From: Singulisphaera sp. GP187
GTDB lineage: Bacteria; Planctomycetota; Phycisphaerae; Phycisphaerales; SM1A02
Direction: 5' to 3'
Length of the DNA: 38,103 nucleotides
NCBI GenBank assembly: GCA_945868805.1
Contig: CAMBMO010000021.1
Coordinates: 1 to 38,103, forward strand
The notes under the pieces are model-generated. The model saw nothing but the letters and a program-made list of their open reading frames with translations. It was not told the DNA's origin and did no database searches. This document shows positions 7,236-24,004 of this stretch, piece by piece. Every line of letters starts with the position of its first letter. Position 1 is the stretch's first letter. The translations under genes and the position numbers were made by a program.

Positions 7236-8243
7236 ATGCGATACCACGCCGCTGCGATTCAAACTGCCTTTGACTGTCCGCGCGACCGGAGCGAAATCGC
7301 GGCTCGGGTCGACCGGATGTGCGCGATGGTCGAGCAGACCTACGCTGGATACGAGCCGTTCTTCGACGTACGCCTTTTCGCGTTTCCTGAGTTCGCCCAT
7401 GCAGCACCTGTCTATCTGACGGTCGCGGAACTTCGCAAGCACCTTGCGGTTCCCGTACCAAACGAACATATCGACAAGTATCTGAAACTGTGTCAGAAGT
7501 TGGGAATCTTCATCCAGACTGGAACATTCATCGAAGCACCCGCCGACCGCGATGATGTTGTCTACAACACGACCGTGCTCTGCGGACCCGGCGGGATTCG
7601 TTCGATCTACCGCAAGGTGAATCCGTGGATTCCATGGGAAGTCCACGCGTCGCCACATGATGTCGGCGCGGATCCCGCGTCGATGTTTCCCGTCGCGCAA
7701 ACCGAAATCGGCAATATCGGTTGTGCGATCTGCTACGACTGGCTCTTTCCCGAATCGATCCGCCAACTCGCCTTCAACGGCGCCGAAGTCGCGGTGCGCG
7801 TGAGTGCGTACATGGACCCGTGGGGGGCGACTCCGCCGATGGATTGGTGGACGCTCTTCAATCGTGCGCGTGCTGCGGAGAACACCATGTTCGTCGTCGC
7901 GGCGAATCAGGGCGCGCAGATGACTGGCTATCCGCCGTTCTCTTGGCCGGGTGGATCGATGATCGTCGATTTCGACGGTCGCATCTTGGCGCAGGCGGAC
8001 CCGGGACCTGGCGAAAAAGTTGTCGTCGCGCCGATCGATCTCGGTGCACTTCGTGCTGAACGCGAGCGTCGTCGCGGTCACGACATGCGCGCACACCTGC
8101 GCACCGAGGCGCACACATATATGAAGTCGCCGATTTTTCCAGCGGCTGGCAGCACCGTCATCGACATCGAAGGCAACAACAGACGAATTCTCGCTGGCCG
8201 TGTTGCTGCAGCGAAAGTCGCACGCGGTGGAAAGACTGCGTGA
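7236..8243 (+). CDS. Nitrilase-superfamily carbon-nitrogen hydrolase
   Basis: The family hydrolyses nitriles, amides or carbamoyl groups through a Glu-Lys-Cys triad. All three are visible in the 335-residue protein: Glu52 in FAFPEF, Lys127 in IYRKVNPW and Cys166 in GCAICYDWLFPES. The following AFNGAEVAVRVSAYMDPWG and RARAAENTMFVVAANQG are typical of the fold. The length suits an aliphatic amidase or nitrilase-like enzyme; the exact substrate cannot be told. Its stop overlaps the start of the large lipoprotein gene (GTGA), so the two are translationally coupled. That link between a cytoplasmic amidohydrolase and a surface FG-GAP protein is unusual. Confidence 0.93.
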   Translation: MRYHAAAIQTAFDCPRDRSEIAARVDRMCAMVEQTYAGYEPFFDVRLFAFPEFAHAAPVYLTVAELRKHLAVPVPNEHIDKYLKLCQKLGIFIQTGTFIEAPADRDDVVYNTTVLCGPGGIRSIYRKVNPWIPWEVHASPHDVGADPASMFPVAQTEIGNIGCAICYDWLFPESIRQLAFNGAEVAVRVSAYMDPWGATPPMDWWTLFNRARAAENTMFVVAANQGAQMTGYPPFSWPGGSMIVDFDGRILAQADPGPGEKVVVAPIDLGALRAERERRRGHDMRAHLRTEAHTYMKSPIFPAAGSTVIDIEGNNRRILAGRVAAAKVARGGKTA

Positions 8244-11200
8244 GTGGGATGACGCGGGTTATTGGGATTGTCGTTGCACTCTTGCTCGCCGGCTGCAACG
8301 ATCCGCAGTCGAACGATCCGCCGATGACTGCGCAGTATGTGCAGGCACTCGATGCGGGCGCAGGCCTTATGGGGCAGTTTGAGTTCGAGAACGCTGGCGC
8401 CTCATTCGCCGCGGCAATCGCCATCGACGCGAACAACCCATACGGTCGCCTCGACGCCGCAATCGCGCAGATGAACCAAACGAGCGATGGCTCGCAGCAA
8501 CGTGCGATCGAGATGTTCGCTCCACTGATGATGGATCCGATCGTCGGCACACGTGCGACCTACGGCACAGCACTTTCGCAGTTGTTTCTCGGTGAAGGTG
8601 CGGCAGCACTCAAGAACTTTCAGATCGTCGCACAGGCGTCTCCAACCGACGCGCACGCCGCGTACTACACAGGGCAGTGTCTCGAAATGGCGGGGGATTT
8701 CGCTGGTGCGCTCGTTTGGTACGAACGCGCTGCGACGCTTAATCCATATCTGCGAAGTGCGGTGCTGGGAATTCAGCGGATCGCATCGCGGCTTGATCAA
8801 TCTCAACGCGCAGCCGAAATGCTTTCGCTCTTCGATCGACTCGCGCAGAATCCGCGTTCCACTCTCGCGCAGTTCAAGTACTCGCGGACGGGTCCGCTTG
8901 GCGAAGTGCTTCTCCCTGCTCAACGCGCGGGAGAATTCGCCCGCGAATCGAGCACGGGCGCTCCTGGACCGCTCTTCGCGCCAGCGGTGATGCTGAATGT
9001 CGAGAATCTTCCTTTGGATTTCCCTTCAGCGGGCTGCAGCTCGGCGATCGATCTCAACGGCGATGGACGAACCGATCTCATCTGGCGAAGTCGTACGGCG
9101 ACCGCTTCGTCGCTCCTTCCGATTATTGCGACTCCACCAGTGGGTGGTGGCGAACCTGGGTGGCGTGCAGCGCCCGACCATCCGATCGCGAAGATTGCGA
9201 ATGTGCGCGACATCATGTGGGGCGACTTGAACAACGATGGTTTGATGGATGGCGTTGTGCAGGTTGATTGGCTCGGGCAGTCCAAACTCTCGGATGACGA
9301 AAAGCAGCTCTATTGGGTCGAACAATCGAGCGACGGAGACTGGACCCCACGTTCGTTCGGCACCGACTCTGGAGGGGCGCAGCGCGTATTGGCGGTTGCC
9401 GATCTCGACCACGACGGCGATCTCGACGTCTTGGTCTCGGATCGCGCATCACCGAGGAAGTACCGCTTGCGCATTCTGTACAACCGCCTCGACGGCGATG
9501 CTCGATCGTGGCAGGCGCAGGACCTGCCTGTCGATCCGACAGCTTGGGTTCTCATAGCAGCGCTCGTCGACATCGACGGTGATGGCGACCTCGATATCGT
9601 TGCGGGCACTCGTGAACGAACAGGCGGGAGTCGCCATGCAGTCATGGCCGTCATCTTGAACGATCGGCTCTGGACATGGAGTCGAGATTCAAAAAAATAT
9701 GGCGAATTCGAGGCCATCGGCGCTTGGTGCGCGGTCGCGTACGTCCGAGATGAGGATGGCACACCGATGATCGCCGCAGTGGCGCCAGCGACGCCGACCT
9801 CGACGACCGCGTCCGACGACTTGGTGATCTTTGCATTCGAGCCCGCCGGCCCCCGATTAATATCGCGCGCTCGGTTCGGAAGCGCAGACTGGCTCGCCGT
9901 CGTCGATGTTGATGGAGATGGTCGTAAGGACATTCTCGTGGGCGGGGTATTGATGCATGGATGGTTCCAACTGATGATGGATGGGGTAGAAAAAACCGTC
10001 GCCATGTTCGATCAGGCGGGAGAGTTCGTGCGGCGGTTCGATGATCCGAGCAACACAACCTATTCAGTCGCGACGCCAATCATCTTGCGCGAGACAGGAT
10101 TGGCACTCGTTGGTGATTCATTTCAGTTTCGAGGTCCAGGCACCGGTCGCAAGCCGATCGCGACGATTGACTTTCGCGGCCGAGTCGACCCTGCACAGCA
10201 GATGCGTACGAATTCGAGTGGGATTGGGACGACGGCGGTCGCGCGGGTTGATGGCCACTGGGTCACCGCACGGCAATTGCCCTGGATGAATGGCGGATTC
10301 ATAACCGCGGGTCAGTCGACCGATCCATGCATCATCGGATTGGGTAGCGGTTGGCGCACCGATGCCCCAAGTGCATCTGACATCGACTTCTTGAGCATCG
10401 ACTGGCCCGACGGAGTGACGCAGAGCGAACTGAATATTGCGCCGGGTGCGCACGCGATCGTCGAGACTCAGCGGCAGATTTCGAGTTGCCCCGTGGTGTT
10501 TGCGTGGGATGGTTCGCGCATGGAATTCGTGACGGACTCACTTGGTGTTGGCGGTTTGGGATTTCTCGCAAGTGTGACGCAAGATTCCAGTGGCCGCCTC
10601 TCGCCTGTTTACGCGCCACCTCGACCATGGGAGCGCATCGCGATTTCGGCAAGTGCGCTCGCGACGAAGTCGGACTTCATTGGAGATCACTTTGAAATCG
10701 CGCTCAGTGAACCGATGGAAGAGATGACCGCGCTCGATGCGGCATCGCTGAAGGCATTCGACCTTCCACCAGGTTGGTCGATTTCATTCGACGAACGTAT
10801 GGGGATCAACGATCCGCAACCGACGGGCGCGCCGATCTTCTGGCGCGAATCGATGTTGCCCGTCCTCGCACGCGTGAGCCACGGTTCGAGTGCGCCGATC
10901 GACCAGACATCAGCAGTCACGACCCGTGATGGCGTTGCAGTTGATCCTGGGAAGATCGATTCGCGATTCATCGGTCGTACGGGACAGCCTTTCACGCTCG
11001 AACTCATATTTGCGCGACCCATTGCAGCGGACGCAGGCGCTCCCTTTCTTTTGATGGATGGCTGGATCGAATACCCATACTGCCAGACAATTTTCGCGAT
11101 GTGGCAGACGAACGCGTCGCTCTCGCCGCCGACATTCGAAGCGCTCGATCCTGCCACGAATACGTGGGTCACACTCGTCAAGGAGTATGGATACCCCGCC

Positions 11201-11779
11201 GGCATGCCACGCGAGGCTGCGTTTCCGCTCGATGCCACGAGGATTCCAGCCAACTGCACATCACTTCGCATCTCGACAAACCACGAGCTCTACATCGATC
11301 GGTGTCGCATCGTTTGGATCGAGCCCTGTCCTCAGGCCATCGAACATACTCTCGCGCTCGAATCTGCGCGTGTGCTCCAGGGCGGTTTCGCTCGGCGACT
11401 TCCAGCTCCACAGCGTCGACCGATGTACGACTACGAATCGCGCGTTCCGCTCTGGGATTGTCGCAAGCAGGCAGGGTGGTACACACGGACTGATATCGAC
11501 TGCTCGCCACTCGTGAGCGATATCGACGATGCGGTGGCGATTTTTGGTGCAGGCGAAGAAGTGCGCATGACTTTCGACGCCGCGCTCCCGCCGGTGCAGA
11601 GTGGATGGACGCGCGCATTCGTCCTCGATCTCGCGGGATGGTGCAAGGACATGGACTTTCTCACTGGCGACGGCGCGACGATCGCGCCACTACCCATTCG
11701 AGATTCCTCTAGCGTTCCTTCACCCGATCGCGCTGCTCTGCACGAGAAGTTCAACACGCGATACGAAGCAGGGCGGTGA
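8240..11779 (+). CDS. Large lipoprotein: TPR, FG-GAP/VCBS repeats, ASPIC/UnbV and C-terminal beta domain
   Basis: The protein has 1179 residues. A lipobox (LLLAGC, Cys19) follows a short hydrophobic core, so it is probably membrane-tethered. Residues 35-205 form TPR-like helices. From about 268 there are calcium-type FG-GAP repeats: DLNGDGRTDL, DLNNDGLMDG, DLDHDGDLDV, DIDGDGDLDI and DVDGDGRKDI, which make a beta-propeller. Near 700-740 is an ASPIC/UnbV-like segment (IDWPDGVTQSELNI). After about 749 begins a module starting CPVVFAWDG and FVTDSLGVGGLGF, which I recall following ASPIC domains in CRTAC1-like proteins; its role is unknown. The GTG at 8240 overlaps the nitrilase stop; an ATG at 8249 is an alternative start. 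A structural or scaffold function at the envelope is inferred. Confidence 0.9.
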   Translation: MSGMTRVIGIVVALLLAGCNDPQSNDPPMTAQYVQALDAGAGLMGQFEFENAGASFAAAIAIDANNPYGRLDAAIAQMNQTSDGSQQRAIEMFAPLMMDPIVGTRATYGTALSQLFLGEGAAALKNFQIVAQASPTDAHAAYYTGQCLEMAGDFAGALVWYERAATLNPYLRSAVLGIQRIASRLDQSQRAAEMLSLFDRLAQNPRSTLAQFKYSRTGPLGEVLLPAQRAGEFARESSTGAPGPLFAPAVMLNVENLPLDFPSAGCSSAIDLNGDGRTDLIWRSRTATASSLLPIIATPPVGGGEPGWRAAPDHPIAKIANVRDIMWGDLNNDGLMDGVVQVDWLGQSKLSDDEKQLYWVEQSSDGDWTPRSFGTDSGGAQRVLAVADLDHDGDLDVLVSDRASPRKYRLRILYNRLDGDARSWQAQDLPVDPTAWVLIAALVDIDGDGDLDIVAGTRERTGGSRHAVMAVILNDRLWTWSRDSKKYGEFEAIGAWCAVAYVRDEDGTPMIAAVAPATPTSTTASDDLVIFAFEPAGPRLISRARFGSADWLAVVDVDGDGRKDILVGGVLMHGWFQLMMDGVEKTVAMFDQAGEFVRRFDDPSNTTYSVATPIILRETGLALVGDSFQFRGPGTGRKPIATIDFRGRVDPAQQMRTNSSGIGTTAVARVDGHWVTARQLPWMNGGFITAGQSTDPCIIGLGSGWRTDAPSASDIDFLSIDWPDGVTQSELNIAPGAHAIVETQRQISSCPVVFAWDGSRMEFVTDSLGVGGLGFLASVTQDSSGRLSPVYAPPRPWERIAISASALATKSDFIGDHFEIALSEPMEEMTALDAASLKAFDLPPGWSISFDERMGINDPQPTGAPIFWRESMLPVLARVSHGSSAPIDQTSAVTTRDGVAVDPGKIDSRFIGRTGQPFTLELIFARPIAADAGAPFLLMDGWIEYPYCQTIFAMWQTNASLSPPTFEALDPATNTWVTLVKEYGYPAGMPREAAFPLDATRIPANCTSLRISTNHELYIDRCRIVWIEPCPQAIEHTLALESARVLQGGFARRLPAPQRRPMYDYESRVPLWDCRKQAGWYTRTDIDCSPLVSDIDDAVAIFGAGEEVRMTFDAALPPVQSGWTRAFVLDLAGWCKDMDFLTGDGATIAPLPIRDSSSVPSPDRAALHEKFNTRYEAGR

Positions 11780-12106
11780 TGGGGCGCACTCCGCAACACT
11801 GCGCGAAAGCGGATCGGTCGCATCATTGTTTGGACCGCCAATGACTCTGATCCAAACGGTCGTCAAGCTGAACCGTGGCCATCGGAACTTCCGCGTGCGA
11901 GCCGAAATGTTCCGATATTCCATACGAGCCAACAGACTCTGGCCACCGCGAAACGTCAACTCGACTTTGTATTCGCTTGCGCCGAGATCGCGACGCGCGT
12001 TGCGACCCGAGCGCCGAACTCAACAGGCGAGTGGGGATGCGGTGATCACTGCCAAGTCAGGATTGACCTCCTCTCGCAGGCCGTTGACGCATAACATCGC
12101 TCCAGA
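11780..12106. other. 327-nt intergenic gap
   Basis: This gap separates the lipoprotein gene from the cytochrome gene on the same strand. No ORF with a recognisable product, no clear terminator hairpin and no convincing promoter were seen. A TTGACG at 12084-12089 has no matching -10 before the ATG at 12107. The cytochrome gene may have its own promoter here, or the gap may hold a lost gene. Confidence 0.45.
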
Positions 12107-14965
12107 ATGACGACCCAGCCGAGCCTTAGAGAGCGTCCCGTTCTCACGCCAGCACTTCGGTGGACCGTGCGCGGCTTGATGGTCGCATTCGTACTGCTCG
12201 TCGTGAATTCGGTCTATCTCTTGTGCGTTTCGACCGCCGGAGTCGTCACCGGAGCTGATCACCAGACCGTCTTTTCCGTTTGGATGTTTCTGATGCATGT
12301 CGTCGTCGGATTGGCGATGGCGATCCCATTCGTCTGGTTTGGAACTGCCCACTTTGTCCGTGCAATCGGGCGATCCAATCGCGCGGCGATTCGACTGGGA
12401 ACGGTCGCGTTTGTCGCCGGGCTACTCACAATCGCCTCGGGCATACTCCTGATGCGTATCGACATCGGTGGTGCGACCCTTTCGATTCGCAGTGTCGCGC
12501 CACGCGACTCTCTCTGGTGGTTGCACATGCTCGCGCCTGCGGTGCTGGTCTGGATGTTTCTCCTCCACCGACTCGCGGGCCCGACGATTCGCTGGCGCAT
12601 GGGCGGATTGCTGGCGGTGATCGCAGTTGGCATAGGTGGTATCGGATTCATCTTGCACGACACGCTCACTGGTAAGAGTGCCGAGTCGAAGCCTTCCTCT
12701 GGCGATTCGTATTTCGAACCTTCACTCGCACGGACCGACACGGGCGGGTTCCTCCCTGCGTCGAGCCTGATGCAAAACGACGAGTGTCTTGTCTGCCATG
12801 CTGACGTTCATGCCGCTTGGGCGCATTCCGTTCACGCCGCGAGTTCTTTCAACAATCCCATCTATGCCTTCGCAGTCCGCGAGACTCGCAAGCAAGCATT
12901 CGAGCGCGAAGGGTCTGTGCAAGATGCGCGCTTCTGCGCGGGATGTCACGACCCAGTTCCATTTTTCTCTGGGGCCTTCGAAGAGACTCGCTGGGACGAT
13001 CCAAACTATGACGCTGCGCACCACCCGATGGGTGCCGCAAGCATCACCTGCACTGCCTGTCACGCGATTACCCACCTGAATTCTCCACGCGGAAATGCTG
13101 ACTATGTCATTGCGCAACCGACCGAATATCCACTTGCTCACTCGGACAACGCGTTCTTTCAGTGGATCAATCATCAGTTGATCCGTGCGCGACCCGGTTT
13201 GCACAAGCGGACATTTCTCAAGCCAGAAGTGCATCGATCGACGGAATTCTGTGGCGCGTGCCACAAGGTCTTTCTGCCAGAAGCACTCAATGATTACCGG
13301 TGGTTACGCGGTCAGAATCACTATGACTCTTTTCGCTTGAGTGGAGTCTCGGGCTTCGGCGCGCAGAGTTGGTACTACCCACCAAAGGCGGAGACCAACT
13401 GCAACGGCTGTCACATGCCGGCGGTTCCGAGCGCCGATCCCGCCGCGAAGCCGCGAGGCCCGCTCGGAGTACTCGCGACTCTCGATCATGGTTTCAACAG
13501 TGCCAATCCGGCTACGCCACTTTTATCGGATTTGCCAGACCCAAAGGAAGTGCTTGCGACATGCGAGGATTTCAATAAGGGAGTGATGCGAGTCGATCTC
13601 TTCGGCATCCGAGAAGGTGGCGAAATCGACGGACAACTTCATGCGCCACTGCGTCCGACCATGCCGACTCTCGTGCGGGGAAAGCGATATCTGCTTGAGG
13701 CAGTTGTTCGCGCAGTCAAGATGGGACACGAATTCACACAAGGCACCGCCGACAGTAACGAAGTTTGGCTCGATGTTGAAGTGCAGACAAACGGGCGTAG
13801 TGTCGGCAGACTTGGTGGCATGAGCGAGGCGCGCGGAGTCGATCCCTGGAGCAAGTTCATCAACGCATATGTCATCGATCGCGAAGGCAATCGCATCGAG
13901 CGGCGCAATCCCGAGGACATTTTCGTCACGCTCTACAACAATCAAGTACCGCCAGGTGCGGCGGACCTGACGCACCTGGCATTCACAGTTCCGCAAGATG
14001 CCGGGGACGAAATTCGAATCACGGTCTCACTGCGTTACCGAAAGTTCGACCTCGCGATCTGGCGAGCGGTGATGGGACCTGATTCAGTGAACGATCTTCC
14101 CATTCTCACGCTTGCGAGCGACGAGGTCGTCTTTCCAGTCGCGGGTGCAGGTGGCGACGTACCGAAGAAACTCGAATCAAACGCAGTCACTCCGACGCCC
14201 GGTCCGGCCGAGCCTTGGATGCGCTGGTACGACTATGGAATTTCGCTCTTCCGGCAGGGTGAGCGCGGAGCAGGCAAGGGCGATCTTCGCCAAGCAGAGC
14301 TTGCATTCACCGAAGTCGAGAAACTCGGACGTTCGGAGGGTGCCCTTGGTCGTGCACGCACTGCGCTCAAGGAAGGTCGTCTCGACGATGCCTCGGCGCA
14401 CTTGCGAACTGCGGCGACGTTCACTCCAGCTGCGTATCCGTGGAGCGTGCGTTGGTTTAGTGCGCTGGTCAATCGCCAGAATGGCGCGCACGCGGCGGCG
14501 GTTGCCGACCTCGAAGCATTGATTGCGTCAAACTTTCCACTTGCGATCGAACGTGGCTTCGACTTCTCGAAAGATGATCGGGTGCTTGTCGAACTTGGCA
14601 ATGTCTTGCTCGAGCAGGCGCGTTCGGCTCGGGGCGATGAAAGTGCGGCGCTTCAGTCGCGTGCGCGCGATCTTGCGACGGCGGCACTCGAGATGGATCC
14701 AGAATCTGTCTCTGCGTGGTACTTGTTGGCACAGGCTCTGCAAGAACTTGGGGACACGGTCGGCGAAGCGGAAGCCCTTGCTCAACACGCGAAGTACAAG
14801 CCCGACGAAAATGCGCGCGATCGTGCGGTCAATCTCGCACGCATACGTGATGCTGCAGCAAACCATGCCTCTGAAGCGATCGTGATATACGACCTTCAAC
14901 GTGCAGATCGATTCGCTGAATCCGCTGATGCTCCGGCGACGAGGAACATCGGAGCGCCCGAGTGA
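12107..14965 (+). CDS. Membrane-anchored pentahaem c554-like cytochrome with C-terminal TPRs
   Basis: The protein has 952 residues. Four to five hydrophobic segments occupy residues 18-185 (near 22-45, 57-80, 97-118, 138-155 and 165-183), with His residues that could bind haem b. The exported part has five CxxCH haem c motifs: CLVCH (227-231), CAGCH (277-281), CTACH (315-319), CGACH (382-386) and CNGCH (432-436), in the arrangement of the cytochrome c554 superfamily. A beta-rich segment follows, then TPR-like helices from about 700 to 930. It probably moves electrons from the membrane to periplasmic or surface partners; the partner is unknown. Its stop overlaps the CRTAC1 gene (GTGA), so the two are coupled. 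No strong ribosome-binding site is visible. Confidence 0.9.
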   Translation: MTTQPSLRERPVLTPALRWTVRGLMVAFVLLVVNSVYLLCVSTAGVVTGADHQTVFSVWMFLMHVVVGLAMAIPFVWFGTAHFVRAIGRSNRAAIRLGTVAFVAGLLTIASGILLMRIDIGGATLSIRSVAPRDSLWWLHMLAPAVLVWMFLLHRLAGPTIRWRMGGLLAVIAVGIGGIGFILHDTLTGKSAESKPSSGDSYFEPSLARTDTGGFLPASSLMQNDECLVCHADVHAAWAHSVHAASSFNNPIYAFAVRETRKQAFEREGSVQDARFCAGCHDPVPFFSGAFEETRWDDPNYDAAHHPMGAASITCTACHAITHLNSPRGNADYVIAQPTEYPLAHSDNAFFQWINHQLIRARPGLHKRTFLKPEVHRSTEFCGACHKVFLPEALNDYRWLRGQNHYDSFRLSGVSGFGAQSWYYPPKAETNCNGCHMPAVPSADPAAKPRGPLGVLATLDHGFNSANPATPLLSDLPDPKEVLATCEDFNKGVMRVDLFGIREGGEIDGQLHAPLRPTMPTLVRGKRYLLEAVVRAVKMGHEFTQGTADSNEVWLDVEVQTNGRSVGRLGGMSEARGVDPWSKFINAYVIDREGNRIERRNPEDIFVTLYNNQVPPGAADLTHLAFTVPQDAGDEIRITVSLRYRKFDLAIWRAVMGPDSVNDLPILTLASDEVVFPVAGAGGDVPKKLESNAVTPTPGPAEPWMRWYDYGISLFRQGERGAGKGDLRQAELAFTEVEKLGRSEGALGRARTALKEGRLDDASAHLRTAATFTPAAYPWSVRWFSALVNRQNGAHAAAVADLEALIASNFPLAIERGFDFSKDDRVLVELGNVLLEQARSARGDESAALQSRARDLATAALEMDPESVSAWYLLAQALQELGDTVGEAEALAQHAKYKPDENARDRAVNLARIRDAAANHASEAIVIYDLQRADRFAESADAPATRNIGAPE

Positions 14966-16833
14966 AAAGTGAGGGCGAGGAGCGGATCGACCGGGGTCTG
15001 CGTCGATCTGCGTTGGTTGCCATCGGCCTGGCGGTCATCGTCGGAGGGACGTATCTCGCTCTTCGTAAGCCACGCCCGCGAGTGCCTGATCCGACTCTTG
15101 CGCCAGGCGCGACCGACACGAAACCAGCACGTGAAAAAAGTGCGCGTGAGCAGGCGCCCGTTCCATTTCGCGATGTCGCAGCCGAGGTCGGCCTCGTCTT
15201 TACGCACGAAAACGGCGCCACCGGAGCGAAACTGCTTCCTGAGACACTCGTCGGTGGAGTCGCGATCTTCGATGCCGATGGCGATGGACGGCAAGATGTG
15301 GCCTTCGCACGCGGAACGAAGTGGACTGGCGACCAGTTTTCCTCGCCACCACCTTCCGACCAATCGAGCGTCCAGTTGTTCCTGAACACGACAGCACGCG
15401 AGCCGGGCGCTGCGATCACATTCGCTCCCGCAATCGATTGCGGTCTCGTCAGCAGCATCTACGCGATGGGTTTGGCGGCGGGGGACTATGACGGCGATGG
15501 CCGCGTCGATCTTTATGTCACTGGCGTCGGCGCAAATCAACTCTTTCAAAACGAGACGCCACAAGGTGGTCCGCCTCAGTTTGCCGATGTGACGCAACGT
15601 GCGAAGGCGGATCCTCCGTCGGACCATCCGCGTTGGGGAACTTCGGCTGGATTCTTCGACGCGGATCGTGACGGCGACCTCGACCTGCTCGTCGGTAACT
15701 ATGTGCGCTGGTCACCTGAGATCGACCGACGAGTCGACTTTCGATTGGCGGGGATAGGACGTGCCTACGGACCTCCGACGGGATTTGAAGGGGATGACTT
15801 GCTTTACTTGCGCAACACGGGCGATGGGACATTCGAGAACGCGACCGAATCTGCGGGATTCGCGATTCGAAATTCGCTCGGGCATCCCACCGGAAAGGCG
15901 CTCGGTCTGATCTTCGTCGACCCCGATCAAGATGGAGACCTCGATGTGGTGGTCGCCAATGACACAGTTCCGAAAGGGTTCTTCGTCAACGACGGTGCGG
16001 GACTCTTCAAGGAAAGCGCCGCGGAGTGCGGTCTCGCGTTCGATCGAAGTGGCGCAGCGACAGGTGCGATGGGTATCGACAGCGGTTACCTCCGTGCGAT
16101 TTCGGGCAGTCGCGGCGAAGACCTTGCCATCGCCATCGGTAATTTTGCCAATGAACCAGATTCGCTCTATATCTCGCGGGGGCGAACTGCGAATTTCTCG
16201 GATGACGCGATCGTTGAAGGACTCGCTGCGCCGACGCGGTCTGTCCTCACCTTCGGCCTCGTCTTGGAAGACTTCGACCTCGATGGCGATCTCGACATCG
16301 CTCAGGCAAATGGTCACATCGAAGATCAGATCAATCGGGTCCAAGCATCGCAGACACATGCACAGCGCGGCCAATTCTTCGTGAATTCGAAGGACGAGTC
16401 GCCATGCTTTATCGAACTGCCGGCGAGTGCCATCGGCGACCTCGGGGCGCCTCGGATTGGACGCGGTCTCGCGAGTGCCGACCTCGACCTCGACGGCGAC
16501 GTCGATCTTGTCATGACGCAAGCGGGTGGCACTGTCGCGCTTCTTCGAAATGACCGAGCAAGTGGCGGTCATTGGCTTCGCGTTGAACTCAAGCCTGGCA
16601 TCTCAGGTCAAGGAATGATTGGAGCGCAGATCGAACTTGAATCTGGCGGATCGTTGCAGCGCCGCCTTCTCTCACCAACGCGAAGTTATCTCTCGCAGTG
16701 CGAATTACCCATGACATTCGGACTCGGGGCGAGCACAAAGGTCGACCGCTTAACGATCCGCTGGCCAAATGGTCAAGTGCAACAAGTGCCAGTCAGTGGG
16801 ATTGATCGCACGATCTCAGTCAGCGCGCCCTAA
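14962..16833 (+). CDS. CRTAC1-like FG-GAP/ASPIC protein with N-terminal membrane anchor
   Basis: The protein has 623 residues. The GTG at 14962 overlaps the cytochrome stop. A single hydrophobic anchor (about 17-35) is followed by a Pro/Ala/Lys linker and then FG-GAP repeats: DADGDGRQDV, DYDGDGRVDL, DADRDGDLDL, DPDQDGDLDV, DFDLDGDLDI and DLDLDGDVDL. These are calcium-binding loops of a beta-propeller. The end carries an ASPIC/UnbV domain, with IGAQIELESGG and IRWPNGQVQQVPV at about 545-610. CRTAC1 homologues are extracellular in animals; the bacterial role is unknown. Translational coupling to a multihaem cytochrome points to a shared envelope complex. Confidence 0.93.
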   Translation: MKSEGEERIDRGLRRSALVAIGLAVIVGGTYLALRKPRPRVPDPTLAPGATDTKPAREKSAREQAPVPFRDVAAEVGLVFTHENGATGAKLLPETLVGGVAIFDADGDGRQDVAFARGTKWTGDQFSSPPPSDQSSVQLFLNTTAREPGAAITFAPAIDCGLVSSIYAMGLAAGDYDGDGRVDLYVTGVGANQLFQNETPQGGPPQFADVTQRAKADPPSDHPRWGTSAGFFDADRDGDLDLLVGNYVRWSPEIDRRVDFRLAGIGRAYGPPTGFEGDDLLYLRNTGDGTFENATESAGFAIRNSLGHPTGKALGLIFVDPDQDGDLDVVVANDTVPKGFFVNDGAGLFKESAAECGLAFDRSGAATGAMGIDSGYLRAISGSRGEDLAIAIGNFANEPDSLYISRGRTANFSDDAIVEGLAAPTRSVLTFGLVLEDFDLDGDLDIAQANGHIEDQINRVQASQTHAQRGQFFVNSKDESPCFIELPASAIGDLGAPRIGRGLASADLDLDGDVDLVMTQAGGTVALLRNDRASGGHWLRVELKPGISGQGMIGAQIELESGGSLQRRLLSPTRSYLSQCELPMTFGLGASTKVDRLTIRWPNGQVQQVPVSGIDRTISVSAP

Positions 16834-16858: not shown

Positions 16859-19396
16859 CTACGGGCAGTTACCCCATCCACCCAAGACCGTTGCCAAGTC
16901 GCTGCCGTCGGTTGTCCCGTCGCCGTTCACATCCGATGAACCAGCTGTGCCCCAACCCGATAGCAAAATGGTGAGATCGATTCCGTCGACGACTGCGTCG
17001 CCGGAGATATCCGCAGGGCACGGTGGCGTGCCGATGCATTCATTGCGACTGATCTTGAGATCGTCGATTCCTGCCTCAAGCGTGCTCGCAGTCAGCAAGT
17101 CCGAAATCACCCAGCGCAATCTGAAGGTCTGTCCAGTTGGATTCACCGTGTCCGACAACAGCGACGTCCGTTGCTGCCAGGCAGTGGTGTTTCCATTCGC
17201 TCGCTCGACCATGATCCACGAACCTCCATCGACGGATACTTGAGTTTCGAACGGATCGAGTTGCGTGGTCGAAGAGCAGAAGTACCAGCGCCAATACGAG
17301 ATCGTGACATCGCCCCCAGCATTCGTGAAGACGGGCGAGGTCAAATACGCCGCACCACCATCGACGTCGTGCGCACTCGCCGCTTGCCCAGTTGTGCTCA
17401 ATTGAGTCACGAAGCACTTCACTCCCGGCGTCGGAGTGTGGTCGTCAGACGGCTCAGCTGGAGCGCCAGTTACGGTTGATCCGATTGGGTCTCCCAACTG
17501 CCACGCACCGCTCGTGAGCCCTGCATCCGCGGTTGCGACCCAACCGGTCGTTGCGCCTTCGAATGTCTCATCGGTGACGACGGTCGTACCAGTAATCGTG
17601 TCTGGGGAATAGAACGCGATTGGCGCACTCGTCGGAGAATTGACGACTGGGTTTCCAGCCGAAGTTGATGTCGCAGAAACGTAGTAATCCAGTTGCTGAG
17701 CGCACGTGGTCGCGGGGAGTCGGGCGATGTACGAACCAGCAGTCCCAGTTGTGATGAGTGGGGTCGTCAACCATGCAGTCGTACTGACGCGGTAGTGAAG
17801 CAACTCGGACCCAGGGACGATCGCGCCAAAGCTGATGGTGATCGTGACGGGGACATCAAATGTCGCTCCAGCAGTAATGGTCGATGGATTTCCAGATGGG
17901 AAGGTGAACGCCAACGGAACTGGTGGTTGGTTGATCCACACCTTGAGCCCTTGGCAACCACCGGTCACGAGGTCGAGCCACTGATCGCCGTTGATGTCGA
18001 AAATTGCGACATCAAAGAGATTGGACAAGTCCGTGATCGGGAGAACCGTTGTGTTCTCATCGAGGAGCGCCGTTGCAATTCCTGTGTTCTTGTAAATCTT
18101 GGTTCGACGCCCCGAGCTCGGGCAGAATGGTCCGAGATCCGAGTCGACGTCGGTGACGATCACATCCTTCCTGCCGTCGCGATCCAAATCTCCGATCGAG
18201 ATTGTGTTGCCAAACTCACTCGGCGAATCTGCAATCACATGGAGCGAGAAATTGGGTTGGCCGTCGGCGGCGTTTCCAGTATTGATGCAATATCGATCCT
18301 GTCCGTCGTCCGCGATCACGAAGTCAAGCCTTCCGTCTCCGTTGAGGTCGGCGACATTCATTCCGTATGGCGCAAGACCCGGATAGACCGACTTGAGCGA
18401 CCAAGTCTGGCCAGGTCCACTCGCGCTGGTTCGGTTCGTGAGGATGGCCGCGTCCTGGCCTGAAGTCAGCGTGCTGACTCGGATGACATCCTGCAGTCCG
18501 TCTCCATTGAAGTCGCCCTCCATGCACATATTGCCGAAAGCTGCCGCCAGCTGCGTCGCGGTCATCTTGGTTGTGGTTGTGTCGTAGAAAAAACCAGGCC
18601 CTGGTCCACCCGAATTTCCCCAGTTATAGAGGAGTTTGTTGTCGTAATCCTTGCTCGCGGTTTCGGCAGGCGACTGCTGGCACTCACCCGTGTCAGAAGT
18701 ATCACCGTCGTTGTTCATGTCGATGCAAATCGTCCCGCTCGTCTCTGGGGTGTCATAGTCGACGTAGTAGAGGTCGACGAATCCGTCTCCGTTAAAGTCG
18801 GCAACCGCGAGATCGCACATACGTGGATTTGCGACGCTTCCGTTCTTTGCGAAGAGCTCTGGAATTCGACCATTCTCGAAACGGAATCCTTGCCAGACGC
18901 CGGAGGCATTGTTGCCGAGATTGCGATAGACACGAGGCTGGCCGAGCATCGCGTTGATCGTGTCGGACATCGTTGTCGCGGTGATGAGATCCACCCATCC
19001 ATCATTATCGACATCGAACGCCTCGACATCGCGATCGTTGACTTCGTCAAACATTCCCTGAGATGTCGCTTCGTCCGCAGCACGCCCAAACTCATTCGTT
19101 CGATCGGTCAGCACGCCGTTCTCGTTCATCAACAACAAGTCGCGGAAGAATCCGCAAGTCGCGCATGTCGACTGAATCGAACCAGGGAACTTGCGCATGA
19201 CGACGAGATCGGTGTCGCCATCGTGATCGAAATCGGCCATCGCGAAGTCCTTCTCGATGTTGTCATTGACCGTCAACGAGGTCGCGGCCGAGAGTCTGGT
19301 CGCGCTCTGATTGGCGAATGTGACCCACTGGGCGGATGCGCTCGACGCCGGGATGAAGGCGAGTACAAGAAGAGAAGCAATGTGGAAGGTTCGCAT
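16859..19396 (-). CDS. Secreted FG-GAP/VCBS repeat protein with GC-type dockerin anchor
   Basis: The protein has 845 residues. A signal peptide (IASLLVLAFIPASSASAQ) precedes many Asp-rich FG-GAP motifs, for example DFDHDGDTDL, DVDNDGWVDL, DFNGDGFVDL, DLNGDGRLDF and DLDRDGRKDV (about 50-470). Two beta-sandwich-like regions follow, the second beginning near TFEGATTGWVATADAG and resembling a carbohydrate-binding or MAM-like fold. The last 55 residues are a dockerin-type pair of EF-hand-like loops, each with a DLxxxLxGWG helix, ending GWGNCP. This ending is typical of GC-type dockerin-anchored proteins of Phycisphaerae and probably a sorting or anchoring signal. It converges tail-to-tail with the CRTAC1 gene at 25 nt. 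Confidence 0.92.
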   Translation of the reverse strand: MRTFHIASLLVLAFIPASSASAQWVTFANQSATRLSAATSLTVNDNIEKDFAMADFDHDGDTDLVVMRKFPGSIQSTCATCGFFRDLLLMNENGVLTDRTNEFGRAADEATSQGMFDEVNDRDVEAFDVDNDGWVDLITATTMSDTINAMLGQPRVYRNLGNNASGVWQGFRFENGRIPELFAKNGSVANPRMCDLAVADFNGDGFVDLYYVDYDTPETSGTICIDMNNDGDTSDTGECQQSPAETASKDYDNKLLYNWGNSGGPGPGFFYDTTTTKMTATQLAAAFGNMCMEGDFNGDGLQDVIRVSTLTSGQDAAILTNRTSASGPGQTWSLKSVYPGLAPYGMNVADLNGDGRLDFVIADDGQDRYCINTGNAADGQPNFSLHVIADSPSEFGNTISIGDLDRDGRKDVIVTDVDSDLGPFCPSSGRRTKIYKNTGIATALLDENTTVLPITDLSNLFDVAIFDINGDQWLDLVTGGCQGLKVWINQPPVPLAFTFPSGNPSTITAGATFDVPVTITISFGAIVPGSELLHYRVSTTAWLTTPLITTGTAGSYIARLPATTCAQQLDYYVSATSTSAGNPVVNSPTSAPIAFYSPDTITGTTVVTDETFEGATTGWVATADAGLTSGAWQLGDPIGSTVTGAPAEPSDDHTPTPGVKCFVTQLSTTGQAASAHDVDGGAAYLTSPVFTNAGGDVTISYWRWYFCSSTTQLDPFETQVSVDGGSWIMVERANGNTTAWQQRTSLLSDTVNPTGQTFRLRWVISDLLTASTLEAGIDDLKISRNECIGTPPCPADISGDAVVDGIDLTILLSGWGTAGSSDVNGDGTTDGSDLATVLGGWGNCP

Positions 19397-19500: not shown

Positions 19501-21225
19501 TCATGGGCACGCTCCCCAGCCGGCGAGAACGATGGCGAGGTCGACTCCATCGACAACGCCGTTATGGTTAACGTCTCCGCCTCCAGACCCACCCCAGTCA
19601 GCGAGGACAAAGGCCAGATCGATTCCATTGACTTGATCGTCTGCGTTTGTGTCGGCGGCACATGGCAGGCACTCGTCGGGGACCCCGTCGTTGTTGGCGT
19701 CTTGGCTTGATCCGAGAGCGATGTCGCGCAGGTCTGCGAAGCCGTTGTCGTTGCAATCAAGAATGTCGCCATCGAACGCGGTCACGAAGAGGTCGACATC
19801 GGTTGCGTCGACCGTGCCGTTCTGATCGACATCGGCGATCGCGCAATCATCATTGGGATTGGTGAATCCCTGCGCCACGCATGTTTGAAGCGCGAAGAAG
19901 TCGAGGATGTCGACGATGTTGTCGCCGTCGAAATCGAATTCAGCCCTGCCGAGCGAATCGAGAAACTTGACGAGCTTGACCTTCTCGACCGCCGAGAGAT
20001 TGGCAAACGCCAGCGCGCTTGCAGAGCCCTCGCCAAATGGTCCGTGTGCAGCGATCGCCGCCGTCGCTCGCGCGGTGAAAGATCCGCCGGCCACCGAAGC
20101 ATTGTGGAGCATCGGATCTCGTCGTCTAAGCCCCCACAGCGTTGGCGTTCGCATCTCTGCTTCGCTCGCGTTTCCGTGGCTGACGCCGTCGGCAATCAGA
20201 CCGACATCGTGCAAGAGGAAATCGCAGTATGGTCGGATTACTTTGCTACGAATGGCATCTTCGAGCGATGGATCGGTCGAAGTCGTGAATTGCGCGATAT
20301 GGCATTTCGAGCAACCGATCTGATCGAAGAGCGCTTCGCCATCCATCCCTGACTTGGGAGTTTGAGGCGGAGGCGCGAGAAAACGCTGAAAATCAGTGAC
20401 TCGGTCGATGAAACCGATTCCATTGGTATCGACGACATCTTCGGGATCTGCCACGTCATCGCAGATCGCCATCCGTGCGTCATCACCGTTGGGTGGGTTT
20501 TCCTCCGGCGTGAATCGGTTCGTGAACCCCATCTCGTTACGCGCGGCATCAGACGAGAAAGAGATCACGGTCGCAATCTGAGCTTTCCAACCGAATCGAC
20601 CCGCACGGAGAGGGCTACCGGTGGGAGCCTCGAGTGGAGTGACCCAGTGAACGCGACCGCTGACCCCGTCGCCATCGGCGTCGAATTCGTCGGCATTCGC
20701 AGAAACCTGCGCATCGGGAATCGCTTCGACCAGTCCAAATGCCAGCGAGCTATTTGTCACGCGCACGGCAACGACTGTCGCATCGGGTGGAACGATTTCG
20801 GCGCAAAAAATGCTGTTTGCGAGGGACTGAGCGAGTGATTGAGTTTCGCCGGGATAGAGACTGAACACGCCCTTCTTCTCCATGCCAAATCGGGTCACAG
20901 TGATCGGTCCCCAACCGCCCAGCGGGTTTGAATGGCACGATCCACAATTGCTCTTGTTCATGATTGGACCGAGACCGCTTTCGATTGGAATCGGCATGCT
21001 GTACAAAGCCTTGCCAGTTAGGAATCGTTCAACCTCGGAAACTGTTAGGCCACTCAATCGCGCACCCATTCTCGGTTGAAGTTCGAGCCCGTCGGCGAGC
21101 GCATGATTCCCAACGAGCAGGAGTGAAAGCAGGAGTGGAAGCAGGAGTGGAAGCAGGAGTGAAAGCAGGAGTGGAACCAAGCGTGAAAGTGCGAAGTCTG
21201 GGGAAGAGCTGCGAAGGTTGGTCAT
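19501..21225 (-). CDS. Secreted di-haem oxidoreductase (DUF1111-like) with dockerin anchor
   Basis: From the ATG at 21225 the protein has 574 residues. It starts with a very Leu-rich signal peptide encoded by 12-bp repeats. Two haem c motifs, CGSCH (94-98) and CSKCH (305-309), with GKALYSMPIPIESGLGP and MRTPTLWGLRRRDPMLHNA between and around them, match the putative di-haem oxidoreductase/peroxidase family. From about 420, DFDGDNIVDILDFFALQTC and DVDQNGTVDATDVDLFVTA form one dockerin-like pair. A second pair ends GWGACP, like the neighbouring FG-GAP protein. A TATAAT box upstream (21293-21298) supports this start over a longer in-frame ATG at 21345. Likely a cell-surface electron-transfer enzyme; substrate unknown. 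Confidence 0.88.
   Translation of the reverse strand: MTNLRSSSPDFALSRLVPLLLSLLLPLLLPLLLSLLLVGNHALADGLELQPRMGARLSGLTVSEVERFLTGKALYSMPIPIESGLGPIMNKSNCGSCHSNPLGGWGPITVTRFGMEKKGVFSLYPGETQSLAQSLANSIFCAEIVPPDATVVAVRVTNSSLAFGLVEAIPDAQVSANADEFDADGDGVSGRVHWVTPLEAPTGSPLRAGRFGWKAQIATVISFSSDAARNEMGFTNRFTPEENPPNGDDARMAICDDVADPEDVVDTNGIGFIDRVTDFQRFLAPPPQTPKSGMDGEALFDQIGCSKCHIAQFTTSTDPSLEDAIRSKVIRPYCDFLLHDVGLIADGVSHGNASEAEMRTPTLWGLRRRDPMLHNASVAGGSFTARATAAIAAHGPFGEGSASALAFANLSAVEKVKLVKFLDSLGRAEFDFDGDNIVDILDFFALQTCVAQGFTNPNDDCAIADVDQNGTVDATDVDLFVTAFDGDILDCNDNGFADLRDIALGSSQDANNDGVPDECLPCAADTNADDQVNGIDLAFVLADWGGSGGGDVNHNGVVDGVDLAIVLAGWGACP
21121..21180 (-). repeat. 12-bp tandem repeat inside a signal peptide
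   Basis: Four full units (GAGTGAAAGCAG or GAGTGGAAGCAG on the plus strand, 21121-21168) plus a degenerate fifth (21169-21180). The unit is four codons, so copy-number change keeps the reading frame. On the coding strand it gives the Leu-Leu-Leu-Ser/Pro pattern that forms the hydrophobic core of the di-haem protein's signal peptide. Confidence 0.85.
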
Positions 21226-21292
21226 GTCTGCTTTCGATATTGACGCGAGCGAGTCGGCGAAGGCACTAGCAAATCTGCATGGAAACGACAGC

Positions 21293-21298
21293 ATTATA
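21293..21298 (-). promoter_or_regulatory. TATAAT-like -10 box of the di-haem oxidoreductase gene
   Basis: Reading leftward, the hexamer is a perfect TATAAT, about 68 nt before the ATG at 21225. A good -35 at 16-18 nt is not evident. Only the -10 match supports it. Confidence 0.4.
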
Positions 21299-21401
21299 GA
21301 CAACAAGCCCGCGAGATTTACGATCGCGCGAGGCTCCCAATCCACAATCTAGTCCAAATATTGCCACATTCCACTTTCATTCGTCGAATACTCTCATCGA
21401 G

Positions 21402-22289
21402 ATGCACCGGTCTTTGAGAATCCGAAGAGATATGTTATCGAGCGCTCTACTTCTGTGTTGTTTTGTCGAATTCGCTTGCGACGAATCCTCCTTGAGAGCA
21501 GCTCCACATGGTGGTTTTGCAATCGCACCGCAGAACCCTATCGAAAGTCAGCAAAGTGCGGCCGTGATCGTGATCGAGCAAGCGCCGACGCCGATCACTT
21601 TGGATCCTGCGGTGCTCCATCCCAACCTGGGAGTCGCAGCGCAGCTCCTTGCCTCGAGGCAATTCGCTGATTCCGAAATCGTGCTTCGGGCGATTTTGAA
21701 GGAAGAACCCAGGTGCGCACGTGCCGAATTCTTGCTTGGTGTGGCGTTAATGAAGCAGAAGCAATACGGACAAGCTCGACCGCTTCTTGAGGCAAGCTTG
21801 GCGAGCGGGCAAGACTTCGCGGGTCGCAAACAAGTTGACCATTTCATCGGATGGGCTTGCTACTACCTCGGAGATCTCGAATCATCGAAGCGCGCATTCC
21901 AGAGTCATGTTGGTTCGGTTGCGACAGCGGACGATTCGTACTACGGACTCGCCGTGATCGCCATCGACGAGGATCGGATCGCCGATGCACAACTTGCGCT
22001 CGAGCGTGCGGTGGAATTGATCGGGCAAAATCCGGCGCGAAAGCAGGACCGTTCAAAGGCGCTCGCGCGACTGGGAGATTTGGAGCTTCGTCGCGAGAAG
22101 CCGACGGAGGCGATGGCGTTGTATGAAGAGTCGCTCGAACTCTGGCCGGACCACTACGAAGTCTGGGCCAAGATCGCCCGGCTCTACGAGAGCGCCAATC
22201 GCACGGCCGATGCGGAACGTGCAAGGGCAAATCAACAAGCAGCGATGCAGCGCGTTGGACGAGCGCCCATCGCGGATCCGGCGCCATGA
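21402..22289 (+). CDS. Exported TPR protein
   Basis: The protein has up to 295 residues. A hydrophobic N-terminus (SALLLCCFVEFAC) suggests export; it does not fit a standard lipobox. From about 75 to 285 there are TPR-like helix pairs, for example ARAEFLLGVALMKQKQYGQA, FIGWACYYLGDLESSKRAF and TEAMALYEESLELWPDHYEV. A start at 21432 is also possible: it has a short hydrophobic lead, and a weak promoter pair (TTGCCA at 21361, TCGAAT at 21384) would leave a normal leader for it. The stop overlaps the CRTAC1 gene start (ATGA), so the two are coupled. The TPR probably scaffolds the FG-GAP partner. Confidence 0.85.
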   Translation: MHRSLRIRRDMLSSALLLCCFVEFACDESSLRAAPHGGFAIAPQNPIESQQSAAVIVIEQAPTPITLDPAVLHPNLGVAAQLLASRQFADSEIVLRAILKEEPRCARAEFLLGVALMKQKQYGQARPLLEASLASGQDFAGRKQVDHFIGWACYYLGDLESSKRAFQSHVGSVATADDSYYGLAVIAIDEDRIADAQLALERAVELIGQNPARKQDRSKALARLGDLELRREKPTEAMALYEESLELWPDHYEVWAKIARLYESANRTADAERARANQQAAMQRVGRAPIADPAP

Positions 22290-24004
22290 TCTGGAGTGCG
22301 TGGAGTGCGTGGATTGCGTGGAGTGCGTTCATCGCGATCGCTTCTATTGAATCAACGCAGTCGCCGGTGATTTCGCAAGGTCCGTCTTCAGGGACGATCC
22401 AAATGGACGATGTCACGGTCTCGTCCGGGATCGATTTCGTGACGACATCTGGTACCGCTCCCAGTGTGCAGATCATCGAAGTGAAGGGTGGCGGAATCGC
22501 AGTCATCGATATCGATAATGACGGTGATTTCGACCTGTTCTTTCCAAACGGCGCGACACTCGACAAACCAACGCAAGGTCCAGGTGCAAGGCTTTATGAA
22601 AACCTGGGCGCAATGAACTTTCGAGATATCACCGCCACGAGTGGCATCAATCATCATGCGTGGAGTTTCGGTTGTGCGGTAGGTGATTACGACGCCGATG
22701 GATTGGACGATCTCTACATCACGTGCGCCGGACCAGATCGACTCATTCGAAATCTCGGTGGTGGACGATTTGCCGATGCGACCGCCACCGCTGGAATTCT
22801 CTCCGAGTCCATGTGGGGAACGTCAGCCGCCTTCGCCGACTTAGACGGCGACCACGACTTGGATCTCTATGTCACGAACTATCTAGAGTGCGATCCAAGA
22901 GTGCCGATACCACCCGCACATTTCCGTGGATTGGAAGTCATTAACGGTCCTCGTGGCCTGCGGGCGCAGCCGGATGTGATCTACGAAAACCTTGGCAACG
23001 GGACATTTGCGGATCGCAGTGTGGAGTCAGGGATACGCGCGCCTGCCCCGAGCTATGGGCTGAATGTGGCAATCCTCGACTTGACGCAGGATGGCCTTCC
23101 CGACATTTATGTCGGCAATGATTCGAAGAGCAACTTCCTGTTCAAGAATCTCGGTGGCTTCCGGTTCCAAGAGATTGCGACGCGCACCGGGACCGCGACG
23201 AACATTGAGGGGGCAGAGCAAGCGACGATGGGGCTTGCAATCGCCGATGTCAATGGTGATGGGCTTCCAGACATTCTGTCCACGAATTTCAGCGACGACA
23301 CTAACACCCTGTTTGTCTCTCGAAAAGACGGATTCTTTGACGATCGAACTTCACAGTACGGCATTGGCATTCCCTCGCGCACACTGTGTGGTTGGGCGGC
23401 GGAATTCGTCGATCTCGATCACGACTGCGACGAGGACATCTTCATCGTCAATGGCCATGTCTATCCGCAGGCGACGATGAAGACGATGAACAGCGAGTAT
23501 CGGCAACCACCACTCGTGATGAGCCGCGAGGGCGAGCGATTCGTTCCATTGAAAGATGCTTCACAGCCGTGGTTGAACAACGCTCGACGCGATCGATCGG
23601 CGGTCTTCGTTGACCTCGACCGCGATGGAGACCAGGATGCCGTGATCACAGGGTTGAATGAACCAGTCAAAGTGATCAAGAATCTCCACAACTCGATTGA
23701 CGACTGGGTGGTCATCGCTCTCGACGACCCTGCGCACCCGGGGAATCGCCGATGTGTCGGAGCGCGGATCGAGCTGACTCTTGGCGGTCGCACGCAGACT
23801 CGGTGGATCATCGGCGGGGGACCATTCCAATCCAACAAGCCGTCAGAAGTTCACTTTGGAATCGGCTCGCCCTCCGCGCAACCCACAGGAACCGTTGGGT
23901 CGAATGAATCGATTTCCGCGAGAGTGACTTGGCCAGATGGGCGGCATTCAACGACGATTGTCGAGCGCGGCAAGCGCACGATTGTGAGGGCGCCAGCGAA
24001 GTGA
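22286..24004 (+). CDS. CRTAC1-like FG-GAP/ASPIC protein, second copy
   Basis: The protein has 572 residues. The ATG overlaps the TPR stop. The signal peptide is a Trp-Ser-Ala repeat built from 9-bp DNA units. FG-GAP loops follow: DIDNDGDFDL, DYDADGLDDL, DLDGDHDLDL, DLTQDGLPDI, DVNGDGLPDI, DLDHDCDEDI and DLDRDGDQDA. The last is followed by an ASPIC/UnbV segment ending VTWPDGRHSTTIVERG. It shares this design with the protein at 14962-16833 and, like it, follows a TPR-containing gene by overlap. No haem motif is present. A surface, calcium-binding role is inferred. Confidence 0.92.
   Translation: MIWSAWSAWIAWSAFIAIASIESTQSPVISQGPSSGTIQMDDVTVSSGIDFVTTSGTAPSVQIIEVKGGGIAVIDIDNDGDFDLFFPNGATLDKPTQGPGARLYENLGAMNFRDITATSGINHHAWSFGCAVGDYDADGLDDLYITCAGPDRLIRNLGGGRFADATATAGILSESMWGTSAAFADLDGDHDLDLYVTNYLECDPRVPIPPAHFRGLEVINGPRGLRAQPDVIYENLGNGTFADRSVESGIRAPAPSYGLNVAILDLTQDGLPDIYVGNDSKSNFLFKNLGGFRFQEIATRTGTATNIEGAEQATMGLAIADVNGDGLPDILSTNFSDDTNTLFVSRKDGFFDDRTSQYGIGIPSRTLCGWAAEFVDLDHDCDEDIFIVNGHVYPQATMKTMNSEYRQPPLVMSREGERFVPLKDASQPWLNNARRDRSAVFVDLDRDGDQDAVITGLNEPVKVIKNLHNSIDDWVVIALDDPAHPGNRRCVGARIELTLGGRTQTRWIIGGGPFQSNKPSEVHFGIGSPSAQPTGTVGSNESISARVTWPDGRHSTTIVERGKRTIVRAPAK
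22292..22327 (+). repeat. 9-bp tandem repeat inside a signal peptide
   Basis: Four near-identical units of TGGAGTGCG (22292-22300, 22301-22309, TGGATTGCG at 22310-22318, and 22319-22327) plus a degenerate fifth (TTCATCGCG). Each encodes Trp-Ser-Ala or Trp-Ile-Ala, forming the hydrophobic core of the CRTAC1-like protein's signal peptide. The unit is three codons, so copy-number change would not shift the frame. Confidence 0.85.

Follow-up and report, generated by a model that had tools for sequence, protein, structure and literature searches.

The 38,103-nt window analyzed here is the entire contig C21 (CAMBMO010000021.1) of Singulisphaera sp. GP187 (Planctomycetota; Phycisphaerales), whose 2.5-Mb genome is assembled in 47 contigs. 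The listing of open reading frames (ORFs) places four genes in succession on the + strand, for a nitrilase-superfamily amidase (NIT, 7236..8243, 335 aa), a large putative lipoprotein (FGTPR, 8240..11779, 1179 aa), a membrane-bound multihaem cytochrome (CYT, 12107..14965, 952 aa), and a CRTAC1/UnbV protein (CRT1, 14962..16833, 623 aa). These four genes had been proposed to constitute one coupled operon in an earlier interpretation made without database searches (hereafter the sequence-only reading), and the ORFs bear out its gene coordinates, its two 4-nt GTGA overlaps (NIT/FGTPR at 8240-8243 and CYT/CRT1 at 14962-14965), and the 327-nt spacing between FGTPR and CYT. The CRT1 start at 14962 is backed by relatives (MKSSGEQ.. 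vs VKSEGEE..); the FGTPR start at 8240 is less sure, with an alternative ATG nine bases later that would leave a 5-nt gap to NIT. A search for transcription signals downstream of CRT1 and in the 327-nt gap found none, a result that is uninformative.

CYT is predicted to comprise a transmembrane (TM) domain of five helices, a pentahaem c domain, a beta-rich GHEFTQG domain, and a C-terminal TPR region (TPR_17, 26.9 bits; Pfam cut-off 24.4). Seven hydropathy windows merge into five N-terminal helices within residues 15-183, and the AlphaFold model likewise shows five helices (at low confidence); basic loop residues are compatible with an N-in, C-out topology, which would place the c-haems in the periplasm. 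Five CxxCH motifs are present (at 227, 277, 315, 382, and 432), in agreement with the label "pentahaem" in the sequence-only reading; this label is incomplete, given that four TM histidines (H64, H82, H140, and H154) are invariant in 33/33 full-length rows (window included); an alignment of 21 rows covering the membrane domain has 10 invariant columns, and these histidines make up four of them. Within the window's family, the five CxxCH motifs and the four TM histidines are kept in 26/26 rows, and in the wider alignment the Cys, Cys, and His columns of all five haem motifs are kept in 39/39 rows, with a strict CxxCH count of four in five of the six short rows that belong to the third of three CYT clades (see below). 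We infer that the membrane domain of CYT is a di-haem b domain, because invariance of four TM histidines is a feature shared with di-haem b proteins, and because the domain resembles DUF4405: comparison of its profile with a Shinella DUF4405 protein gave a probability of 91 (E 1.1e-6), against scores of 1.3 and 0.1 for two other membrane proteins of the window used as controls. The domain labels in the sequence-only reading agree with Pfam, except that "c554-like" is a weak description of CYT, which scores 18.8 bits against the cytochrome c554 (PF13435) cut-off of 20.8 and thus falls short of that family, whereas its relatives from Granulicella (31.9 bits) and Shinella (36.2 bits) exceed it.

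CRT1 belongs to the CRTAC1/UnbV family (PF07593), with an FG-GAP propeller (FG-GAP_3, 80 bits), an ASPIC domain (61.3 bits; cut-off 23.4), an N-terminal TM segment (residues 16-34) as a putative membrane anchor, and six DxDxDG-type motifs. FGTPR has similar parts, namely a lipobox (LAGC), TPR, an FG-GAP propeller (FG-GAP_3, 78 bits), and a sub-threshold ASPIC region, followed by 439 C-terminal residues (10460-11776, +) with zero Pfam family matches. All three ASPIC matches of the genome are in the window, two above the cut-off and one, in FGTPR, slightly under it; at 16.7 bits in the protein scan or 22 in the genome search, against 23.4, FGTPR falls outside the CRTAC1 family. A rough lipobox pattern occurs in 15/23 FGTPR orthologues and in 7/20 NIT sequences used as a control, which is modest evidence for a lipoprotein.

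NIT is a member of the nitrilase superfamily (CN_hydrolase, PF00795, 123.2 bits; cut-off 23.2) with zero predicted TM helices, and is taken to be cytosolic. It is strongly conserved (61-95% identity across family relatives), and E52, K127, and C166, which we take to be the Glu-Lys-Cys triad of the superfamily, are invariant in 20/20 sequences. Its best PDB sequence match is a formamidase (1.4e-21), and formamidase and aliphatic amidase are among the nearest nitrilase branches, although NIT is far under the cut-offs of both families (101.9 vs 406 bits for formamidase, NF009803; 69 vs 427 bits for aliphatic amidase). Identity as a lipoprotein acyltransferase (Lnt) was rejected, given the lack of a membrane domain and a score of 34.7 bits against 132.9. 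The sequence-only reading suggested that the nitrilase could modify a product or signal of the redox machinery; the analysis gave no evidence that NIT takes part in the redox step.

The pairing of CYT with a CRTAC1 protein extends across the phylum. Matches to a profile of the haem domain occur in 110/343 planctomycete genomes; of 40 neighbourhoods, which were hand-picked and not random, 38 contain CYT, representing 33 genomes and 19 families (including three loci, L088, L092, and L106, from the window's own family), and the other two (L111 and L112) are weak profile matches without a CYT match at E 1e-15. A CRTAC1 gene lies downstream of CYT on the same strand and within 414 nt in 34/38 loci (the widest gap, at L076, has a 118-aa ORF called within it), and at L092 it is 3.3 kb away. 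When the ORFs of the 40 neighbourhoods were clustered, using a caller that is crude in high-GC DNA, the only clusters besides CYT and CRTAC1 found in at least four loci were FGTPR-like proteins (six loci, one of them in the window's own family) and one cluster presumed to be antisense to CYT. The FGTPR-like C-terminal parts are located near CYT-CRT1 in other families at L075, L081, L082, L091, and L110, with a short stretch at L101.

CYT proteins fall into three clades of about 950, 900, and 700 residues, of which the third appears to lack the TPR tail, and the tree of adjacent CRTAC1 proteins recovers the same three clades with support of 99-100 (L087 and L093 were excluded from the trees, though CRT1 adjoins CYT in both, and are counted in the 34/38). 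Distances between CYT proteins correlate with those between their CRTAC1 neighbours (r 0.92 over 34 pairs; 0/2000 permutations as high), also within the individual clades (0.88, 0/2000; 0.96, 0/2000; and 0.75, 19/2000). Four genomes (G072, G103, G220, and G383) contain two paralogous pairs, in which each CYT is accompanied by a CRTAC1 of its own clade, an arrangement for which shared species history alone is insufficient to account. A fifth genome (G156) has a clade-1 pair and a clade-2 CYT without CRTAC1 alongside. The persistence of the pair across planctomycete families, and its co-divergence in three clades, support the proposal in the sequence-only reading of an envelope redox module composed of a membrane cytochrome and a CRTAC1 protein.

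Closer to the window, we searched 61 genomes of the family (the window genome and 60 relatives), and found matches to CYT in 33, to CRT1 in 50, to the lipoprotein in 48, and to the nitrilase in 58, many of those to CRT1, the lipoprotein, and the nitrilase being distant paralogues. Among fetched loci, an eight-gene order of NIT-lipoprotein-CYT-CRT1-(FGGAP2-DHOR, reverse)-TPR2-CRT2 (the last four genes are described below) recurs in several genera, in support of the sequence-only reading for its four genes. This recurrence is more than chance, because it includes relatives with CYT proteins 41-78% identical. Gene order alone is weak evidence in G035 and in congeners (G006 and G015 among them), where the order of the flanking mur and lpt genes is conserved too. 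In nine genomes of the genus (G001, G002, G003, G004, G006, G007, G015, G017, and G018), contig breaks fall within or next to the genes for the lipoprotein, CYT, CRT1, FGGAP2, or DHOR; these include contigs ending inside CRT1 (G003 and G018) or the lipoprotein gene (G017), and contigs starting inside FGGAP2 or DHOR (G006, G007, and G015); true absence of CYT within the genus was rejected as a reading, since such breaks make absences indistinguishable from assembly gaps.

The four genes are two linked two-gene units and not one obligate operon, as read from the tight spacing of NIT-lipoprotein (≤26 nt in 17/21 loci) and CYT-CRT1 (≤138 nt in 27/27) versus the variable gap between lipoprotein and CYT. 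This gap spans 14 to 5181 nt over 22 loci (≤135 nt in 12, 200-327 nt in four, including the window, and 952-5181 nt in six; G023 was excluded from these and the CYT-CRT1 counts). In the congener G008 (L026 5806-9967), three genes intervene, two on the opposite strand (555 and 453 aa) and one on the same strand (329 aa), the 453-aa protein being presumably a type-II NADH dehydrogenase. In G030 and G060, the lipoprotein gene and CYT-CRT1 are found on separate contigs, as are the NIT and lipoprotein genes in G019. The proposed single coupled operon is therefore not upheld by the lipoprotein-CYT gap, and neither are the GTGA overlaps a fixed coupling: the genes overlap in only 8/21 loci for NIT/lipoprotein and 10/27 for CYT/CRT1 (approximate counts, based on start codons chosen by script). 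The NIT-lipoprotein unit was seen in the window's family only; the CYT-CRTAC1 unit is far older.

The explanation that we consider best, and somewhat probable, is that CYT-CRT1 is the core two-gene unit and encodes a quinone-linked b/c cytochrome with CRT1 docked on its TPR region. CYT would reside in the inner membrane, where its five helices would hold two b-type haems that trade electrons with the quinone pool; with the five c-type haems of the periplasmic domain, it would form a conduit of seven haems in total. The C-terminal TPR tail would dock CRT1, a putative Ca-binding beta-propeller with its anchor in that membrane, and electrons taken from quinol would pass outward to a partner or substrate held by CRT1 beside the c-haems. 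The family's second unit, usually adjoining, would supply a cytosolic amidase and a lipoprotein of similar parts (TPR and a CRTAC1-like propeller), the latter probably being the surface or outer-membrane counterpart of CYT-CRT1. We would lean slightly against, while regarding as plausible, the broader proposition that Planctomycetota widely possess a quinone-linked complex of seven haems (2 b + 5 c), with CRTAC1/UnbV as an obligate subunit on the TPR tail, and that duplication of the two-gene unit has given rise to three or more paralogous systems.

Several observations weigh against this proposal of a quinone-linked cytochrome with a docked CRTAC1 protein. As well as the selective choice of neighbourhoods, CYT lacks a CRTAC1 neighbour at three loci (L074, L100, and L103), and part of the CYT-CRTAC1 co-divergence is shared species history. 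With respect to the membrane domain, the DUF4405 profile alignment spans the first three helices only, and hence only H64 and H82; the Pfam model itself (PF14358) did not match CYT residues 1-210 even at E 10; and CYT is predicted to have five TM helices versus the six described for DUF4405. With respect to docking, both the TPR (30.3 of 32.7) and ASPIC regions of FGTPR score under their Pfam cut-offs, and the idea that TPR and CRTAC1 proteins are paired as a general rule was found to be weak: across 37 CRTAC1 loci (40 from the top of the match list, less L130, L132, and L142, for which no CRTAC1 ORF was kept), the same-strand neighbour matches any single TPR model in ≤7/37 cases upstream and 2/35 downstream, counted per single model and not as a union over models. 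FG-GAP proteins are instead the upstream same-strand neighbours of the sampled CRTAC1 genes in 8/29 cases. The complex is also without structural support, the AlphaFold model of CYT having a mean predicted local distance difference test score (pLDDT) of 45 and that of FGTPR 47; what we took from these models was limited to the N-terminal helices in CYT and, in both proteins, the TPR helices, which in FGTPR are confident over residues 31-201 and back the TPR region in a model that is otherwise poor.

Downstream of CRT1 are two genes on the opposite strand, FGGAP2 (16859..19396, -) and DHOR (19501..21345, -; start codon uncertain), followed by TPR2 (21402..22289, +) and CRT2 (22286..24004, +). 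FGGAP2, an FG-GAP protein with an N-terminal hydrophobic stretch, is kept in the conserved block of relatives. DHOR is a member of the di-haem oxidoreductase (DUF1111) family (PF06537, 126.3 bits; cut-off 22) with two CxxCH motifs (CGSCH and CSKCH), and is the sole DHOR match of the genome. FGGAP2 (16862-17029, -) and DHOR (19504-19665, -) share a dockerin-like C-terminal module ending in WGxCP, which has 61 matches in the 2.5-Mb genome and may serve as a tag for surface sorting or attachment. TPR2 has TPR matches and is possibly a lipoprotein; its lipobox pattern was rejected as evidence for this, as its occurrence in 7/21 orthologues does not exceed the rate in the NIT control. CRT2 is a second CRTAC1/UnbV protein (ASPIC 41.4 bits vs 23.4), which in the CRTAC1 tree is on a long branch and groups with clade 3. 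TPR2 and CRT2 share a third overlap (ATGA, 22286-22289) that is missing from the sequence-only reading; among the junctions of the block it is the best conserved, with an overlap of 1-4 nt in 18/19 loci (likewise approximate, from start codons chosen by script).

A function in iron redox or uptake, with CYT and DHOR setting the oxidation state of envelope iron and the Asp-rich CRTAC1 propellers binding metal, is unlikely. It draws on a Shinella plasmid (L114 4206-9677), in which imelysin, DUF4405, pentahaem (five-CxxCH) cytochrome, and FTR1 are encoded by separate adjacent genes, the CYT relative thus being split; this cluster looks like an iron-uptake redox chain. In addition, according to PMC3143127, DUF1111 is a family of di-haem peroxidases that occurs together with imelysin and EfeUOB iron systems, and the DUF4405-like FezC belongs to ferrosomes (PMC11334425). 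However, the Shinella cytochrome is only 26% identical to CYT over the haem region, the window's genome has no FTR1 match at E 0.001, and no imelysin or iron transporter was recognized among the 30 window ORFs covered by the Pfam scan.

It is similarly doubtful that CYT is itself a terminal reductase, in which one c-haem without a conserved distal ligand binds a small substrate. Among the tracked periplasmic histidines of CYT outside the CxxCH motifs, only H243, H366, H461, and H541 are invariant (39/39), and position 405 varies by clade (His in 19/21 clade-1 proteins, the remaining two having Leu and Ser; Glu in 12/12 of clade 2; Gln in 6/6 of clade 3), which could accord with a haem that lacks a conserved distal ligand. 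The haem profile also weakly matches c552 (5ze8) and MccSep (about 1e-5), but these matches cover only about the first three haem motifs.

Even less probable is the handling of polymers or glycans at the surface, with TPR-CRTAC1 proteins binding the polymer and the cytochrome feeding an oxidative step. On four plasmids of the Acidobacteriota Granulicella tundricola and Acidisarcina polymorpha, CRTAC1 is near glycoside hydrolases, beside a TPR gene on three of the four, and near a TonB-dependent or carboxypeptidase-regulatory-domain protein on three of the four, and the FGTPR lipobox would accord with a surface location. By contrast, the Pfam-scanned ORFs of the window include no recognized glycoside hydrolase or TonB receptor, and the 40 neighbourhoods have no recurring cluster beyond CYT, CRTAC1, FGTPR-like proteins, and the presumed antisense ORFs. 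Lastly, background synteny caused by little gene movement in the family, to which the ordered mur and lpt genes would attest, is very improbable, and is refuted for CYT-CRT1 only and not for the eight-gene block, since CYT and CRT1 remain paired in other families despite different neighbours, and four genomes contain two pairs that belong to different clades.

A partnership of CYT and CRTAC1 across 19 families provides a testable role for CRTAC1 in electron transfer and, if true, would be the first defined role for bacterial CRTAC1 proteins, as subunits of electron-transfer enzymes. ASPIC/CRTAC1 proteins are common in planctomycetes, an ASPIC match at E 1e-6 being present in 82/119 sampled genomes. 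In the open-licence literature, as represented by titles and the starts of abstracts, we found neither a described bacterial role for ASPIC/CRTAC1 nor a description of the CYT-CRTAC1 pair; the sole bacterial lead there for CRTAC1 context is the occurrence of CRTAC1 genes flanking genes similar to those of hydrazine synthase (HZS) in some non-anammox planctomycetes (PMC12758564). CRT1 is an ordinary member of the CRTAC1/UnbV family and, unlike those beside HZS-like genes, has a membrane b/c cytochrome as its partner. A relationship to hydrazine synthase was rejected, as DHOR, CYT, and FGTPR have no HZS chain among their PDB sequence matches. On plasmid pACIX901 of Granulicella tundricola (L113 5837-15737), CRTAC1 adjoins a five-CxxCH TPR cytochrome without an evident b-domain, and a second group (CRTAC1-CRTAC1-TPR) is near a TonB-dependent receptor.

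Among known cytochromes, those of the c552 (5ze8), MccSep/ExtKL, and c554 types have weak profile likeness to part of the CYT haem region, and presumably lack TPR and b-domains. CYT was rejected as a pentahaem nitrite reductase (NrfA), for which there was only a partial match (1oah, E 0.16). DUF4405 resembles CYT in its compact membrane domain with four conserved histidines, with profile similarity over three helices that takes in two of the four, and the purified protein, described with six TM helices, shows haem b absorption (PMC11334425); CYT differs in being under Pfam detection for this family and fused to a pentahaem c domain, and no flavinylation gene was recognized among the Pfam-scanned window ORFs. 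CbcL/MtrH/MtoC of Geobacter and others also combine a di-haem b membrane domain and a multihaem c domain in one polypeptide, and have been proposed to act as a quinol oxidase or quinone reductase (PMC6295460). However, those proteins have N-terminal c-haems followed by a C-terminal 6-TM HydC/FdnI-like domain, whereas in CYT this domain order is reversed (TM 15-183, CxxCH 227-436), with five TM helices, a TPR tail, and a CRTAC1 partner. The domain order of b-domain, pentahaem c domain, and TPR would thus be an addition to the quinone-linked multihaem cytochromes compared here.

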